Made by a program: the position numbers and the translations under genes. Positions 47,973 to 62,880 of a stretch of DNA of 64,000 nt are shown here, piece by piece (within the stretch, counting starts at the first letter, position 1; each line of letters starts with the position of its first letter). The notes beneath the pieces were generated by a model, which was not told the DNA's origin, did no database searches, and worked only from the letters and a program-made list of their open reading frames with translations. The DNA lies in contig NZ_LN831776.1 in the NCBI RefSeq assembly GCF_000981585.1, positions 4,261,187-4,325,186 of the forward strand. The letters are read 5' to 3'. The DNA comes from Paenibacillus riograndensis SBR5 (GTDB lineage Bacteria > Bacillota > Bacilli > Paenibacillales > Paenibacillaceae).

Positions 47973-50171
47973 TTATTCCACCCTCACCCACTGCTTCAGC
48001 ACCTCTACCAGCCCCGGAACGTCGAGGCCGTCGAGGGAAAAGGCTTTGCGCAGCAGGTCGTGGGGGATGAATTCATCGTATTTGCCAAGGTAAGGCGCTT
48101 CATCCGGCCCCAGGAGAGCAATCGGATCAGATACAGCAGCGGCTTCGGCGATAATCTCCTGCTCCAGCGTTTCTGCATCTGTCTTCCCGGAAACGACCAT
48201 ATAATACGGCTCCATGGGGGTTACGGAACGCAGTCCCAGCGGGCCCTTGAGATTATTCTTCAGCAGCCGTTCCAGAGTCCGGAACTGCCGGCTCCCGGCC
48301 CAGGGCAGAATGAACATCGAATCGCCTCCGGCCGGAAGCACCGAATGCGTGAGCAATCCGCTTTCCTTGGCCAGACGGCGGGCCCGTTCCAGTCTTGCTG
48401 CCGCGCTGGGCGCCAGATAGGGATATAGTGCCGTAGCTCCCAGCACCTCACGAATTTTGTTCATAATGCGGGTATGCACATCCCCGCCTGCGCCCAGCCA
48501 TAAGGTATCTACTTTGCCGCGCGAGCCTTTGACATATACGGCTTTATGGCGGTTATCCACCTCTTCGACCTTCCACAGCTTGCCTGCAAGAGTGAAGCAG
48601 TACCCCGGCGGCGGGACAGTGGTTATTGAACCAATCTCTTCGGTGCCGTTATATACCACATGTTCCTCGTCGTCTTTGAATACCGCATAGAAACGGAAGT
48701 TATTGACGATCTTCTCCCCTGCCAGCCCAACCAGCAGGCTGCCCTCATCCATGCACTCAATATGGCCCATGCCGATCATATATTCCATGAACGCATCATA
48801 ATCGCCGGGCTCGATGCTGCTAAAGGACGGGAGGCTCAGCACGGCCGCCTTCAGATCCTCCGGCTCCGCTTCGCCCATACTTTTCAGGATGCTCATCGTC
48901 TGATGGTAGAGCAGCCCCACCGGAAGCTGCCGCACAGCCAGCGGCTCGACCCACTTCTCGCGCACGTAGAGCTCGATGACGGCGATAGCCCGCAGCAGCG
49001 TCCACGGCATCCGCGCGGGAAGCTGGGCTTCTTCGTCCTCTTCCTCCGGCGTGACGAAGATCATCTCTGAAGCGGCGTCGCCCCGCCGCCCGGAGCGCCC
49101 CAGCCGCTGCACGAAGCTCGCGCAGCTGTATGGTGCACCGAGCTGCAGCACGCGCTCCAGCTCGCCCAGGTCAATGCCCAGCTCCAGCGTCAGCGTGGCC
49201 GCTGCCACCGCCGGGCCGGGTCCCTGACGGAGCGCAGCCTCCGTCTCTTCACGCAGCATCGCGGAGATGCTGCCGTGATGGACATGGAACACGTCGCGCT
49301 CCCCGCGCTTCGCAGCAAGCCGCCGCATCTCCAGGATTGCCTCCTCGGCATCCGTGCGGCTGTTGGTGAAAATGAGCGCCTTCTTCAGATGCGTATGGTC
49401 ATAGATGAAGCCATAATACGCCTGCCGCGCCCGCTCCAGATGCTCAGCCTGCACTTCGTCCCGTGCATCCGGGAAAGAAAAGTGCTCCACGCTGAGGCGC
49501 AGCTTGCGCCCGCCCTGCGGAGCAGAGACCTCTACGCTTTCGCGGGTACCGGCGGCCAGCCATTCCGTCACGGATGCGTAGTCGCTCAGCGTGGCCGACA
49601 GTCCGATCCGCCGCGGATGGCAGCCGGCCATACGCGAGATCCGCGCCAGCTGGCTAAGCACCTGAATGCCGCGGTCCGCCCCCATGAAGGCATGCACTTC
49701 ATCCACTATAATGAAGCGAAGATCATGGAACAGCGCCGGAATGGCATTAGGGCGGTTCATCAGCAGCCCTTCCAGCGATTCCGGGGTAATCTGCAGCACG
49801 CCGGAGGGGTTTTGCATCAGCTTCGTCTTGTCCGCCTGCGGCACATCTCCATGCCAATGCCAGACCGGAATATTCCCTTCACGCAGCAGGTCATTCAACC
49901 GGGTGAACTGGTCATTGATCAGCGCCTTAAGCGGCGCAATGTAAAGGATGCCCACTGAGGCGGACGGATCTTCGTACAGCTGGGTAAGCGCCGGAAAGAA
50001 AGCGGCTTCTGTCTTGCCGGAAGCCGTTCCGGAAGCAATGAGCAGATGATGCGGCGTATCGAACAGCACCCGGCAGGCATCCACCTGGGCTTCGCGCAGC
50101 GTCTCCCAGCGGTTCTTATAGATAAACTCTTTGATAAACGGAGCCAGCCTGTAAAACGGATTGCTGCTCAT
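47973..50171 (-). CDS. Lhr-like DEVH-box helicase
   Basis: A 732-aa superfamily 2 helicase. Motifs: Walker A ASGTASGKTE (46-55), DEVH (157-160), SAT in GLSATLS (191-195), TNSRTDAEE (269-277) and QRLGRSGRRG (355-364). The region after 370 (ALPARMPWTLLRAIAVIELYVREKW, then an OB/winged domain) resembles the Lhr/BrxHI helicases found with BrxD ATPases in BREX-type loci. The start overlaps the BrxD-like stop by 4 bp. It is the last gene of the operon and would act on DNA engaged by the ATPase. No nuclease domain is visible. Confidence 0.88.
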   Translation of the reverse strand: MSSNPFYRLAPFIKEFIYKNRWETLREAQVDACRVLFDTPHHLLIASGTASGKTEAAFFPALTQLYEDPSASVGILYIAPLKALINDQFTRLNDLLREGNIPVWHWHGDVPQADKTKLMQNPSGVLQITPESLEGLLMNRPNAIPALFHDLRFIIVDEVHAFMGADRGIQVLSQLARISRMAGCHPRRIGLSATLSDYASVTEWLAAGTRESVEVSAPQGGRKLRLSVEHFSFPDARDEVQAEHLERARQAYYGFIYDHTHLKKALIFTNSRTDAEEAILEMRRLAAKRGERDVFHVHHGSISAMLREETEAALRQGPGPAVAAATLTLELGIDLGELERVLQLGAPYSCASFVQRLGRSGRRGDAASEMIFVTPEEEDEEAQLPARMPWTLLRAIAVIELYVREKWVEPLAVRQLPVGLLYHQTMSILKSMGEAEPEDLKAAVLSLPSFSSIEPGDYDAFMEYMIGMGHIECMDEGSLLVGLAGEKIVNNFRFYAVFKDDEEHVVYNGTEEIGSITTVPPPGYCFTLAGKLWKVEEVDNRHKAVYVKGSRGKVDTLWLGAGGDVHTRIMNKIREVLGATALYPYLAPSAAARLERARRLAKESGLLTHSVLPAGGDSMFILPWAGSRQFRTLERLLKNNLKGPLGLRSVTPMEPYYMVVSGKTDAETLEQEIIAEAAAVSDPIALLGPDEAPYLGKYDEFIPHDLLRKAFSLDGLDVPGLVEVLKQWVRVE

Positions 50172-51487
50172 AGATCAAACTCCGCCAGGAATCCGTCCAG
50201 CTCGTTCGTCTCTGCCTCGGCAGGCTTGGCCGTCCGCTCGCCTACAAGCTTCTCGAACGACATATCCGGGTGCTGATGCAGGGTATGCAGCAGGTCCATG
50301 AAGTCCCGCACGACCTCACGTGCGGTGAGCAGTTCGTCTGCGCCCAGCCGGCCTACAGCTTCCTCCATGAAATGCACCAGCTGCTCCTGTGTCAGCTTGG
50401 CTTCATAGCCGTAGTGAAGGGCATGGATATCCCGCAGCTTTTGCAGCAGCACCAGTATTTCCTCATGGGAGAGCATCTCCAGGGCAATAATCGGCCCGGT
50501 AAAATTATTCAGCCCCGTCCCGCCGTAACGTCCGGCGACGAGCCTTGAACGCAAGGCTTCATAACTGAACAGACCTCGCCGGTTGTCTTCGACAAACTGC
50601 GGTGTCCCGCCGATAAAGATCCCCAGCCGCTCTGCCTTGCCTTGCATCGTATCATTGAACATGGTCAGCAGCTTCTCATAGTTGCTCTGGCGTGAGATGC
50701 TGTTGGTGATCTTATACAGGTTCACGCCTTCATCAATAAACAGCAGCAGCCCTTTATAGCCGATGCTCCCTATGAACTCGGCCCATAGCTTCATATAATC
50801 GTACCAGTTATCATCGTCGATGATGACCCCTACCCCCAGCGCCTTGCGCGCTTCGGTGCGGGTAGCGAACTCCCCGCGCAGCCAGCGCAGGGCATCCTGC
50901 TTCAGCCCGTCATCGGCAAGCTTGTGGCCGTTCCAGTATGTCGCCAGCACCTTGGCAAAATCAAATCCGTGCACAAGCCCGCGCATTTCGGAAGCTACCG
51001 AATAGATCCGCTGCTCCACCTCTTGCCCAAGCTGCGGAGCGTCGGGGCCGCAGCCTTTCTCCTGCATTACGGCTTGCTGAAGACTGATGATCCATTTCTG
51101 GAGGATCATCTCCAGCGCTCCGCCGTCCGGGCGTGTGCGCGTGGAGAGATGGCTCATCAGCTCCCGGTAGGTGGCCAGGCCCTGCCCTTTGGTTCCAACC
51201 AGCCGCCGTTCCGGGGACAGGTCGGCATCCGCGACCACAAAATCCCGGTCCATGGCATAGTTGCGGATAATCTGAAGCAGGAAGCTTTTGCCGCTGCCGA
51301 ATTTGCCGGTGATCAGCTTGAAGGCAGCTCCGCCTTCCGCGATGTTCTCCATATCCCGGAGTATGGACTCGACCTCGGGTCTGCGGCCAACCGCAATATG
51401 CTCCAGGCCAATACGCGGCACTACTCCCGCAGTCAGAGAGTTCACGAGCGCGGTCGTCATCCGTTTTGGTATTTTAAGCTCACTCAT
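50168..51487 (-). CDS. BrxD-like ATPase (DUF2791)
   Basis: A 439-aa P-loop protein. Walker A is GKFGSGKS (61-68), Walker B is LLLFIDEG (247-254), and FVVADADLSPERRLVG with GQGLATYRELM are diagnostic of the BREX ATP-binding protein BrxD family. The N-terminal GVVPRIGLEHIAVGRRPEV is also conserved there. It overlaps both neighbours by 4 bp. In BREX loci BrxD accompanies the helicase BrxHI; here the same pair is joined to a TerB_N/TerB_C protein instead of the methylase and PglZ modules. Confidence 0.9.
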   Translation of the reverse strand: MSELKIPKRMTTALVNSLTAGVVPRIGLEHIAVGRRPEVESILRDMENIAEGGAAFKLITGKFGSGKSFLLQIIRNYAMDRDFVVADADLSPERRLVGTKGQGLATYRELMSHLSTRTRPDGGALEMILQKWIISLQQAVMQEKGCGPDAPQLGQEVEQRIYSVASEMRGLVHGFDFAKVLATYWNGHKLADDGLKQDALRWLRGEFATRTEARKALGVGVIIDDDNWYDYMKLWAEFIGSIGYKGLLLFIDEGVNLYKITNSISRQSNYEKLLTMFNDTMQGKAERLGIFIGGTPQFVEDNRRGLFSYEALRSRLVAGRYGGTGLNNFTGPIIALEMLSHEEILVLLQKLRDIHALHYGYEAKLTQEQLVHFMEEAVGRLGADELLTAREVVRDFMDLLHTLHQHPDMSFEKLVGERTAKPAEAETNELDGFLAEFDL

Positions 51488-53190
51488 CGATCATTCACCC
51501 CACCCAAGTATTGCAGCATCGGCATAAATTCCTCGTTTAACTCTTCTTCATCTATAAGCAGATCGCCTAGCAGATTCATGGCAGTCTCATTAATCCCGTC
51601 GAATAACAGCTCTGCCATTGTTCCGCCTGCTGAAGCCAAATGCTGTACCGCTGCCATTCCCCTGCCTTCCGCCAGCGCACGAACCGTCTCCCACTCCAGC
51701 GGAGTCAGCGCAGCGGCAAAAGAATGCCACAGCGCAGCAGCGCTATTGCCGGAATCCTGCTGAGCCTCAGCCACAATGCCGCTTGTTTCCAGAGTTGAAG
51801 CCGCTTCGGAACCGGCAAACCGCTTCACAGCTTCATGCCCAGCCTCGGCTGACGGTACTCCATCATCTTCAGCTCCCGCCGGATCAGCGTGCTGAACTTG
51901 CATATCAGGCTCATCTGCAGCCGGTACCCCCGTCCGTCCCGTCACATCACCGTCAGCCTCTGCAACGGCAGGCCGTCCCTCTAACTCTTCGGTCTCTTCA
52001 ACCGTAAGCAGCGTCCTCACAATGTCGGAATCGTTCTGAAGCTGTTCCACCTTCTTAGCATCAATGACAACCGCCGGCCCCTTTTCCAGCTGCTCCGCTT
52101 TGCGGAATTCGCGCTGCAGGAACCTGGTGATCAAATCTTCCATATCTGCATCAACCTTAATATCCTTCAATCTGCCCCGGTAGCCCAGCAGCTCCCGCAG
52201 CTTGTTCTCCGTCAGCCGGAACAGGCGGGTGATCAGACTGCGCAGCGGTGGAGATTTGCTGATCCGCACCACAGGGACAAGCACGGAGTAGCCATACAAT
52301 GAGATGTCGTACACCGCACTGCGGAACAGGTAACGCTCCCGGACCACCGCTGGACCCGGGGGAAACATGCCGATCAGATTCGAGCCATGCTTGCGGGCCA
52401 CATAAGCGTCAATCAGCGCCACTACCTGCGGGATATAGCGTTCCGCCGCCGTTTTGCCTTCACCGGTATAGAATTTGGACTTGCTGATATCGTAATCCGA
52501 CATGACGGTCAGCACTTCAAACGTAAGCTGCTCCGGTGCAGCGGTCAGGCAGCGCATCAGCTCAAGCTCAGCCAGATCGCCGGCAAGTCCGCGTGAACGG
52601 GCGACAATCCCCGACAGCGGAACGTCCAGATGATGGACAAAGGAGAAATCCGCAATCCAGCCGCCCAGATACTGGTCCAGTCTTTTATATTGATCCCGGT
52701 AGGCTTCCCATAACAGATTCAGCTGCCGGTATCCATCCTGAGGCTCGTCCCACCCTACACCGTTGATCAGCTCATAGACATGCAGAAAGATATAGGACAG
52801 ATCCGTTTTTGGATATCTGCCCTGTCTGACCTCATCCCGCCAAAAGAAATACCATCTGCTCTGCGCCCCGGTCATGTGACCATAGGTGGGCCAGTAACTT
52901 TTGAAAGGAACAAACAGCGACGCTGTCTCTTTGTGATCCACTAACTCCCTGGCCCGGACCACGAACTGGCTCTCCGTCGTCGTTACCGGCTCCTGTGTTT
53001 CCTCCATATCCCATAACTGAAGCTGTACAGTGGCTTCTTCAGGAGCTTTTTTCTTCGGTGCGGCTGCCGGGGGCTTGGGAACCTTGAGGTCAGCCGAAGC
53101 ACGCGGAGGAATCGGCAGATTCTGCTCCGTGCTCTCCCACACCAGCTCTGTAAAATGCGGCTCTTTTCCGTCTCTGCTCAAGTCTCTCAC
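51484..53190 (-). CDS. TerB_N/TerB_C domain protein
   Basis: A 568-aa protein. The N-terminal part (about 70-290) has YWPTYGHMTGAQSRWYFFWR, the QxxWYFxWR hallmark of TerB_N, followed by LSYIFLHVYELINGVGW. A low-complexity acidic Ala/Glu linker spans about 395-490. The C-terminal ~75 aa (LTPLEWETVRALAEG, LFDGINETAMNLLGDLLIDEEELNEEF) match TerB_C. No enzymatic motif is seen; these domains were described in comparative studies of Ter-linked stress loci and are thought to act as scaffolds or sensors. First gene of the three-gene operon. Start is GTG at 53190 or TTG at 53181, the latter with GGGGTG upstream. Confidence 0.85.
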   Translation of the reverse strand: MRDLSRDGKEPHFTELVWESTEQNLPIPPRASADLKVPKPPAAAPKKKAPEEATVQLQLWDMEETQEPVTTTESQFVVRARELVDHKETASLFVPFKSYWPTYGHMTGAQSRWYFFWRDEVRQGRYPKTDLSYIFLHVYELINGVGWDEPQDGYRQLNLLWEAYRDQYKRLDQYLGGWIADFSFVHHLDVPLSGIVARSRGLAGDLAELELMRCLTAAPEQLTFEVLTVMSDYDISKSKFYTGEGKTAAERYIPQVVALIDAYVARKHGSNLIGMFPPGPAVVRERYLFRSAVYDISLYGYSVLVPVVRISKSPPLRSLITRLFRLTENKLRELLGYRGRLKDIKVDADMEDLITRFLQREFRKAEQLEKGPAVVIDAKKVEQLQNDSDIVRTLLTVEETEELEGRPAVAEADGDVTGRTGVPAADEPDMQVQHADPAGAEDDGVPSAEAGHEAVKRFAGSEAASTLETSGIVAEAQQDSGNSAAALWHSFAAALTPLEWETVRALAEGRGMAAVQHLASAGGTMAELLFDGINETAMNLLGDLLIDEEELNEEFMPMLQYLGGVNDR

Positions 53191-53341
53191 CCCGATTACA
53201 ATCTTACGAAAAAACGGTCCTGTTCACAGAAGTGAAGGAACCGTTTGTGTTCTTCCGGTATGAAATAACGCTGTCTATAATCTACTACTAATATTAGCAT
53301 TCTTGCCTGACCAACATCAAGCCTCAGGTGGAGATTGATCT

Positions 53342-60381: not shown

Positions 60382-61614
60382 ATGCCCCAACTGCAAGCAC
60401 AGCTTAGTAAATATGCGGATTTGGCGGTTCGAATCGGAGTTAATGTTCAGCCCGGACAGACCCTGATCGTGAGCGCGCCTATTTCAGCTGCAGAATTTGT
60501 ACGGCTCATTACAGCTAAGGCCTATGCCATCGGCGCGAGCCAGGTCAAGGTCAATTGGAGCGATGAATTCATTACCCGCCAGCTATTTGAGCATGCCGCA
60601 CCGGAAGTGTTCACTAAGCCGCCTACCTGGTTTGCGGGTGAAATAACCGAGTTCGCCGAGAATGGCGCAGCTTTCCTTCATGTTATCGCCGAAGACCCGG
60701 ATGCGCTCAAAGGCATTGACTCCGAGCGGATTGCGAACTACCAGAAAACCCGCGGAGAAGCTCTGACCAAATACCGCGAGCTGCAAATGTCTGATAAAGT
60801 CAGCTGGAGCATTGTTGCCATTCCGTCGCAGGCTTGGGCCGATAAGGTATTCCCGGATGTTCCGGCAGATGAACGCGTAGACAAGCTTTGGGAAGCAATT
60901 TTCCACACCGTACGCCTGGACCGCGAAGATCCTGTAGCCGCCTGGCAGGAACATTTGGATACCCTTGAACAAAAAGCCAATGTCCTGAACGCCAAGAAAT
61001 ATAAAAGCCTCCATTACATAGCACCCGGTACTGATCTTAGCATTGAGCTGCCTGAAGGACACTTGTGGGCGCAAGGCGACAGCATCAATGCCAAGGGCCA
61101 TTCTTTTGTCGCCAATATGCCGACTGAAGAAGTGTTCACAGCCCCACTCAAAACCGGTGTCAACGGAACGGTCAAAGCCACGAAGCCGCTTAGCTACGGC
61201 GGGAACATTATTGACGGCTTCTCCATTACTTTTGAACAAGGCCGGATCGTTAGTGTAGCAGCCGAACAGGGCCAGGAGGCGCTGGAATATCTCATCGGGC
61301 TGGATGAAGGTGCAAAATATCTCGGCGAAGTGGCGCTTGTCCCGCATAAATCTCCAATTTCGGAATCCAATATCCTGTATTTCAATACTTTGTTCGATGA
61401 GAATGCCTCCAACCATCTGGCCATTGGCACAGCTTATGCCTTCTGTCTCGAAGGCGGCAAAGAAATGAATAAGGACGAACTGATTGCCCACGGCCTGAAC
61501 ACAAGCGTTACGCATGTCGATTTTATGATCGGCTCAGCGGAGATGGACATTTACGGTATCACCGTTGACGGCACCAGAGAGCCTGTATTCCTCAAGGGGA
61601 ACTGGGCGTTCTAA
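60382..61614 (+). CDS. M29-family aminopeptidase
   Basis: A 410-aa thermophilic-aminopeptidase (AmpS/AmpT) type protein. NMPTEEVFTAP and LGEVALVPHKSPIS carry the metal-binding Glu residues, and FDENASNHLAIGTAY and THVDFMIGSAEMDIYGI carry His/Asp ligands. GGAGG lies 7 nt before the start. Tandem with a second M29 gene 36 bp downstream. Cytosolic peptide turnover is likely. Confidence 0.93.
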   Translation: MPQLQAQLSKYADLAVRIGVNVQPGQTLIVSAPISAAEFVRLITAKAYAIGASQVKVNWSDEFITRQLFEHAAPEVFTKPPTWFAGEITEFAENGAAFLHVIAEDPDALKGIDSERIANYQKTRGEALTKYRELQMSDKVSWSIVAIPSQAWADKVFPDVPADERVDKLWEAIFHTVRLDREDPVAAWQEHLDTLEQKANVLNAKKYKSLHYIAPGTDLSIELPEGHLWAQGDSINAKGHSFVANMPTEEVFTAPLKTGVNGTVKATKPLSYGGNIIDGFSITFEQGRIVSVAAEQGQEALEYLIGLDEGAKYLGEVALVPHKSPISESNILYFNTLFDENASNHLAIGTAYAFCLEGGKEMNKDELIAHGLNTSVTHVDFMIGSAEMDIYGITVDGTREPVFLKGNWAF

Positions 61615-61650
61615 AGCAGGCTGGACAGAGATATTAAGAGGAGTGGTACT

Positions 61651-62880
61651 ATGCTGAGTTTTACGCAAAAGCTGGAGAATTACGCACTGCTGACGGTCAA
61701 AATCGGAATTAACATTCAGCCTGGACAGACCCTTGTGGTCAACGCTGATATAGCTTCGGCAGAACTGGTGCGGCTGGTAGTGCGCAAGGCCTATGAAGCC
61801 GGGGCAAAACTGGTTAAGGTGAATTATACGGATGAACTTGTCACCCGCACACGTTACGAGCTGGCGCCGTCCGAAAGCTTCCTCGAACCGCCAAAATGGC
61901 AGGCCGATGAGCTGGAGGACCTGGCTAAAAACGGAGCAGCCTTCCTGTCGGTCATTTCGACCAATCCGGATCTGCTGAACGGGATCGATCCCGTACGTAT
62001 TGCCGATAATCAGCGCACAGCCGGTCAAGCTATGATGCCATACCGGGAACTGCTGATGGGCAACCATGTCAGCTGGAGCCTGGTGGCCTACCCCTCGCCT
62101 GTGTGGGCGGCCAAGGTATTCCCGGACGCTCCGCCAGAACAGCAGGTAGAACTGCTGTGGGATGCCATCTTCAAGGCTGTCAGAGCAGACCAGGAGAATC
62201 CGGTTGAAGCCTGGAGCCTCCACCTGGCCGGCCTGAAGCAGCGCTGTGATATTTTGAATGCGAAAAAATACCGCAAGCTCCACTATACCGCACCAGGCAC
62301 TGATCTCATGCTTGAGCTGCCGGAAGGCCATATTTGGTGTCAAGCGGGGGCTGTGAACGGACGCGGAGTACCTTTTCTGGCGAATATCCCAACCGAAGAG
62401 GTCTTCACGGCACCGCTTAAGACAGGTGCAAACGGTACAGTCAGCAGCACGAAACCGCTAAGCTATAGCGGCAACATCATTGACCGTTTCACCCTTACCC
62501 TGGAGAATGGGAAAGTTACAGATTTCACTGCAGAAGTGGGCCAGGATGCGTTAGCATCTCTGCTGGCGATGGACGAAGGCTCTGCTTATTTTGGGGAAGT
62601 CGCCCTCGTTCCCTACCACTCTCCGATCTCGGAAAGCGGCATTCTGTACTTCACTACACTTTATGATGAGAATGCTTCCTGTCACCTGGCTCTGGGAGCA
62701 GCTTACGCTTTCACTCTGGAGCAAGGTACGGCGATGACCAAAGAGCAGCTTGCCGAGCACGGGATGAATCAAAGCCTGACTCACGTGGATTTCATGATGG
62801 GCTCCGCGGATATGAATATCGACGGGATTACGGATGAAGGCCTGGCCGAACCTATTTTCCGCAACGGAAACTGGGCTTAA
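61651..62880 (+). CDS. M29-family aminopeptidase (tandem paralog)
   Basis: A 409-aa paralog of the preceding gene with identical metal motifs (NIPTEEVFTAP, GEVALVPYHSPIS, YDENASCHLALGAAY, THVDFMMGSADMNIDGI). The overall similarity is high, so the pair arose by duplication. AGAGGAG lies 7 nt before the start. It shares a terminator with the first gene. Confidence 0.93.
   Translation: MLSFTQKLENYALLTVKIGINIQPGQTLVVNADIASAELVRLVVRKAYEAGAKLVKVNYTDELVTRTRYELAPSESFLEPPKWQADELEDLAKNGAAFLSVISTNPDLLNGIDPVRIADNQRTAGQAMMPYRELLMGNHVSWSLVAYPSPVWAAKVFPDAPPEQQVELLWDAIFKAVRADQENPVEAWSLHLAGLKQRCDILNAKKYRKLHYTAPGTDLMLELPEGHIWCQAGAVNGRGVPFLANIPTEEVFTAPLKTGANGTVSSTKPLSYSGNIIDRFTLTLENGKVTDFTAEVGQDALASLLAMDEGSAYFGEVALVPYHSPISESGILYFTTLYDENASCHLALGAAYAFTLEQGTAMTKEQLAEHGMNQSLTHVDFMMGSADMNIDGITDEGLAEPIFRNGNWA

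Follow-up and report, generated by a model that had tools for sequence, protein, structure and literature searches.

A minus-strand operon in Paenibacillus riograndensis SBR5, which joins a TerB_N/TerB_C protein to a BrxD-like ATPase and an Lhr-like helicase, raises the question of what such a trio is: an offshoot of BREX, a phage defence system in its own right, or a machine with which the cell maintains its own chromosome. The operon lies in a stretch of 64,000 nucleotides (NZ_LN831776.1, positions 4,261,187 to 4,325,186), here termed the window, from a genome held in a single contig of 7.92 Mb. Three open reading frames (ORFs) on the minus strand, as are all operon features located below, occupy window positions 51484-53190, 50168-51487 and 47973-50171 and encode proteins of 568, 439 and 732 aa. 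Each of the two junctions is a 4-bp overlap, and an 11-pair hairpin with a T-rich tail, resembling an intrinsic terminator, lies 3' of the third gene at 47881-47855, which bears out the layout given by a first-pass annotation; terminator-like sites are not rare by chance in the scanned stretch (12 found, 8.6 expected). By its sequences, the trio can be assigned to Shango (SngA-SngB-SngC), a known kind of anti-phage operon, and it probably represents a lineage of Shango whose SngA lost, or never had, the TerB core and which would work by the mechanism proposed below.

The assignment follows from the PADLOC models, in which each of the three window proteins found its own Shango model as the best match (SngA, 7.9e-108; SngB, 3.7e-206; SngC, 9.8e-240), with alignments spanning SngB 1-439 and SngC 1-727. 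The next-best models were BrxHI for the helicase (3.8e-122) and BrxD for the ATPase (2e-47). In the sense used by PADLOC, that of adjacent genes each matching its own model, here with 4-bp overlaps, the trio is thus a Shango operon. The domains first proposed were recovered by Pfam, with TerB_N (8e-34; residues 64-268, 52387-53001, mostly of high pLDDT from about residue 70) and TerB_C (3e-7) in SngA, BrxC_BrxD (PF10923, 3.8e-164) in the AAA+ ATPase SngB, and DEAD (5e-25) and Helicase_C (2e-14) in the superfamily 2 (SF2) helicase SngC. Both enzymes retain their active-site motifs, namely Walker A (residues 61-68, 51284-51307) and Walker B (residues 247-254, 50726-50749) of SngB, and helicase motifs I (residues 47-56, 50004-50033), II (residues 155-160, 49692-49709), III, V and VI of SngC. 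The Walker A Lys and the Walker B Asp and Glu are conserved in 107 of 107 sequences, and the motif I Lys and the motif II D, E and H in 103 of 103, counts that include two loci (L245 and L246, from genomes G437 and G512) whose SngB, with an identity of only about 25%, may be a BREX BrxD.

Gene number, order and families are the same as in the Shango systems of E. coli and Pseudomonas aeruginosa PA14, and as there no nuclease domain was recognised in the trio. The first-pass annotation, which had seen neither nuclease nor methylase, described a compact, ATP-driven DNA-processing trio of the defence kind, related to BrxD and BrxHI, and this description is supported, but the published name and tests of Shango/SngABC escaped it. 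Its proposal that the TerB protein “replaces” BREX components is not supported, as SngB and SngC score far better on the Shango models than on those of BrxD and BrxHI. Compared with the window proteins, the Shango proteins of E. coli and Salmonella plasmids show identities of 38-39% for SngB and 31% for SngC, figures that refer to the plasmid sequences and not to the assayed E. coli and PA14 systems.

The point of departure is SngA. A review table, in the part of the source available, lists the TerB core PF05099 for Shango (PMC10952713), and the domain is present in SngA of proteobacteria, fusobacteria and archaea, including the plasmid-borne SngA of E. coli and Salmonella, whereas Pfam detected it in none of 53 SngA of the window lineage. 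A profile built from six TerB cores matched, at E <0.1, only its own six among 77 SngA, and profile-profile comparison returned a probability of 0.5%. In the place of the core there is a predicted disordered linker (residues 402-481, 51748-51987), and PF05099 was detected neither in it nor in any other part of the protein. Under the narrow definition, in which Shango SngA carries PF05099, the operon would fall outside the system; because the PADLOC SngA model of 528 positions still aligned over 75-524, the core was not treated as a requirement. The TerB core may sense metal.

The remainder of SngA is variable in other ways, with lengths of 505-1554 aa across the loci read, fragments excluded. 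A short conserved motif at residues 13-30 (53101-53154) has F13 and E15 invariant in the 53 sequences of alignment A1, followed by IPxR; this alignment holds the window and 52 of a list of 67 SngA that excludes L089 and L093 (in pieces), L102 and most SngA of >1000 aa. The surrounding N-terminus is otherwise disordered, a similar FAE...IPPR precedes TerB_N in long SngA, and the motif may bind a partner. Long SngA, of 929-1554 aa, occur at L121, L126, L127, L129, L131-L135, L138, L141-L143 and L231, and in a single model (L142) their N-terminal part takes a fold like the first lobe of an SNF2 ATPase, seemingly devoid of both Walker A loop and DEAH box. SngA of L241, L244, L247, L249 and L250 bear TM2, a membrane domain, at the N-terminus and may represent a membrane-anchored Shango. 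The swapping of these front ends (TerB core, TM2 or dead SNF2 lobe) around a constant SngB-SngC suggests where target choice is located.

Conservation of the trio as a unit was examined in 80 named loci, kept from 101 encoding a relative and drawn mostly from Paenibacillus but also from Saccharibacillus, Fontibacillus and a handful of others. Among named SngB, the closest one found belongs to Paenibacillus jilunlii and is 98% identical, records very near the genome itself possibly having been left out. In 76 of the 80, frames for sngA, sngB and sngC are found side by side, so the arrangement is not a product of chance; of the 78 loci with both sngB and sngC read, 76 repeat the 4-bp overlap of these two genes. 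Two loci lack sngC at a contig end (L102, L135), and in two others sngA was undetectable (L130, L139). In these last two, a LacI-type regulator gene and a glucosidase-like gene, so named by our own reading, stand upstream of sngB-sngC. Genes in pieces are seen in sngA of L089 and L093 and in sngC of L117. SngB of Saccharibacillus (L126, L127, L129, L131, L132, L134, L138) measures 530-687 aa against 439 aa in the window, owing to a C-terminal extension.

Within the genus, SngB was matched in all 100 genomes searched, among them that of SBR5 and all 96 of good quality; it is a nearly full-length single piece in 93 and partial in G024, where the contig ends (L102), and G025. SngB lies in pieces in G009, G020, G023, G033 and G099, by natural loss or sequencing error. 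An even draw over the order gave matches in 132 of 296 genomes, 127 of them in the family of the window, and outside the family only G276 and G286 matched strongly over most of the SngB model. SngB is rare beyond the family: in a draw over the phylum, 25 of 398 genomes matched at 1e-60, seven within the family and 18 outside it, the latter including the two possible BrxD of G437 and G512.

How such an operon may act can be framed from its homologues. BrxD and BrxHI of BREX form a linked dyad proposed to comprise a loader and a helicase, in which BrxD is classed as an ORC-Cdc6 AAA+ ATPase that possibly loads or activates BrxHI (available text of PMC12839542), and SngC has been grouped with BrxHI, DruE and DpdJ in a “potentially distinct” clade of defence helicases (PMC12278908, in part). 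By this homology, it is proposed that SngB, an ORC/Cdc6-like ATPase, would oligomerise and then load or gate SngC, while SngA, with its TerB_N, middle helical module and TerB_C, would join the complex as a recruiting scaffold or sensor. SngC, as an Lhr-type SF2 helicase, would then translocate along the DNA of an incoming phage or plasmid, or along aberrant forks, and the resulting phenotype would be a block to replication of the target through unwinding or displacement, with no nuclease of its own. Such an operon would serve the genus as a standing guard, kept in all genomes searched, and not as a mobile cassette. Phage defence is on record for Shango of other bacteria: in the available portion of PMC10250203, Shango of PA14 reduces the plating of many phages, though not of all, by 10-100-fold, and that of E. 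coli reduces it about 10-fold for two phages.

Several points weigh against this account. PF05099, listed for Shango (available part of PMC10952713), is absent from SngA here, and SngA has neither a solved relative by sequence nor a confident fold match. The loading step is borrowed by analogy from what was proposed for BREX, a defence gene is not usually present in all genomes of a genus, and no assay of the window trio or of any Bacillota Shango was found in the literature searched.

These last considerations bring forward the alternative that survives best, a domesticated housekeeping machine for chromosome maintenance, for example in fork restart or the clearing of DNA-bound obstacles, with phage defence secondary or derived elsewhere; it is a possible account, if a doubtful one. 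SngB is found in 100 of 100 genus genomes, as against 46 for HSDR_N, 33 for Cas1, 19 for JetD and 22 for PglZ (12 over cut-off), and at E 1e-10 it was matched in none of 50,697 phage records. Purifying selection acts on the trio: in comparisons with five near relatives, the ratio of nonsynonymous to synonymous substitution rates (dN/dS) is 0.024-0.052 for SngC, 0.037-0.050 for SngB and 0.091-0.134 for SngA, and the constraint on SngB and SngC is similar to that on the flanking genes (0-0.099). The neighbours, where identified, are metabolic or transport genes. CNNM, DUF1836 and MFS genes are common to close loci (19, 18 and 19 loci, respectively), a gene upstream in 21 loci encodes a peptidase M50B in the one example scanned, and a gene downstream in 14 encodes a pentapeptide-repeat protein, again in one example. 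The scan of neighbours covered ten proteins, three from the window: nine had no PADLOC match, and the tenth (from L129), which Pfam identifies as a chemoreceptor, matched ZorA weakly (E 1e-4). With SngB in every genus genome and no defence neighbour among these ten, the operon does not behave in the genus as part of a mobile defence island, and is in this unlike Shango of PA14, which lies in a variable defence hotspot (PMC10250203, as far as available).

The descent of the operon speaks against a purely vertical housekeeping role. RpoB and SngC trees of 30 genomes, chosen by us from those seen, both recover genus code g19, a grouping of g24 and g27, and a set formed by the six genomes around the window, but the SngC tree mixes g1, g18 and g20. 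Approximately unbiased (AU) tests on the helicase data reject the monophyly of g1 (p 9.8e-8) and of g20 (p 1.7e-5), which suggests that genera have exchanged copies. Because RpoB supports g1 only at 85/87 and itself splits g18, this conflict depends no less on the genus codes than on RpoB. In G276 and G286, identity to the window genome's proteins is near 89% for RpoB but drops to 34% for SngC, so their copies have a separate origin. Sought at 1e-150, SngC was matched in 113 of the 245 genomes and in 8 of the 19 genera of the family, the other genera lacking it. In the genus itself, five of the 100 genomes have SngB in pieces (one of these genomes is only 72% complete). Across the loci read, the length range of SngA is what would be expected of a part in conflict, and Shango of other bacteria protects against phages (PMC10250203, in part). 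The overall picture is one of constant presence together with exchange between genera. The preferred reading, a coreless Shango acting on foreign DNA, leaves room for the cell's own damaged forks as a target, which is worth testing given the constant presence in Paenibacillus.

That the operon is a recently acquired defence cassette is improbable. The reading is hinted at by the G+C content of the three genes (55.7, 57.7 and 60.1%, against 50% for the window) and by the spread of homologues on plasmids, where a SngB relative occurs in 684 of 72,556 records at E 1e-20. Of these, 541 are typed conjugative, 449 are from Klebsiella and 144 from Salmonella, and two are Paenibacillus plasmids; the relative is common on large enterobacterial plasmids. 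However, in 78 relatives the G+C of SngC exceeds that of the respective locus by 6.9 points on average (range -4.0 to 14.8), and because the excess is on average common to relatives it is, on the whole, a lasting trait. The synonymous divergence (dS) of the trio from the five near relatives is also within the range of its neighbours, and the MFS gene adjoining sngA is shared by 19 of the 80 loci.

It is on the plasmids of other bacteria that a defence neighbourhood was encountered, and not among the ten neighbour proteins scanned in the genus. The same gene order is found on plasmids of E. coli, Salmonella, Phaeobacter, Cetobacterium and the archaeon Halocatena, and on plasmids the trio adjoins a Lit-family gene, type I restriction genes or a DUF4297 gene. 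On the Phaeobacter inhibens plasmid (L225:11476-17200), the trio is followed by the DUF4297 anti-phage-associated gene, an ATP-binding protein and a DNA repair exonuclease. Outside defence islands, restriction-modification genes tend to lie near Shango, according to the available part of one survey (PMC10924106).

Likewise improbable is a degraded or split-off BREX type 2 module, in which BrxD and BrxHI would remain after loss of the BREX core: SngB is homologous to BrxD and SngC to BrxHI, and BREX type 2 likewise sets a BrxC/BrxD-family ATPase beside an Lhr-like SF2 helicase, but the operon has only three genes, encodes an SngB that scores 165 bits on the NCBI BrxD equivalog against a cut-off of 350, recurs with TerB_N/TerB_C in other bacteria and archaea, and stands in a genome with no second BrxC/BrxD-family gene found, no PglZ at the locus and only one short PglZ match (25.7 bits) >3.8 Mb away, PglX and PglW being unsearched. 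Nor is the trio tied to BREX genes across the genus, with PglZ over cut-off in 12 genomes and SngB in all 100. SngC also shares its helicase core with the ligase-associated DEXH helicases and Lhr, and matches TIGR04121 at 4.1e-63 over residues 13-639, with a score of 213 against an equivalog cut-off of 850. The solved ATP-dependent DNA helicases 5v9x and 7lhl, which we take to be Lhr, match the same core. The nearest mechanistic analogue is Hachiman (HamAB), whose helicase serves as a sensor of DNA integrity (PMC12278908, in part) and which, unlike the window trio, where none was recognised, has a nuclease effector, HamA.

Translation of sngA probably begins from a TTG at 53181, 9 nt 3' of the annotated GTG at 53190, giving a protein of 565 aa. 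This start is favoured because GGGGTGAG, resembling a ribosome-binding site, is directly 5' of the in-frame TTG, the nearest SngA relatives are of 565 aa, and SngA of L064 begins at the corresponding TTG. Between sngA and the upstream MFS gene, a hairpin with a T-run noted by eye (53212-53246, minus strand) is probably the terminator of the MFS gene, and a similar sequence, also by eye, precedes sngA in L064, L065, L067, L076 and L081. Elsewhere in the window, a tandem pair of neighbouring ORFs (410 and 409 aa), alike in sequence, spans 60382-62880 and resembles M29 aminopeptidases.

Shango itself is already known, and has been named in the Bacillus cereus group by one survey (available text of PMC11811056); the new part is the coreless lineage and its retention across a genus. 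Neither was found in the literature searched, where survey tables or supplements could hold counts, nor was a description of the Shango mechanism. Tentatively, Shango in Paenibacillus and its sister genera might be seen as a resident genome-integrity machine, hardly ever lost yet swapped between genera, to which the TerB core is dispensable. If so, the working unit would be the loader-helicase pair SngB-SngC, and SngA would be an interchangeable adaptor, fitted elsewhere with a front end of the TerB-core, TM2-anchor or dead SNF2-lobe type. The coreless lineage can reveal which parts of Shango are needed, and a genus with Shango in every genome searched offers a testable case of a defence operon turned into, or derived from, core machinery of the cell.

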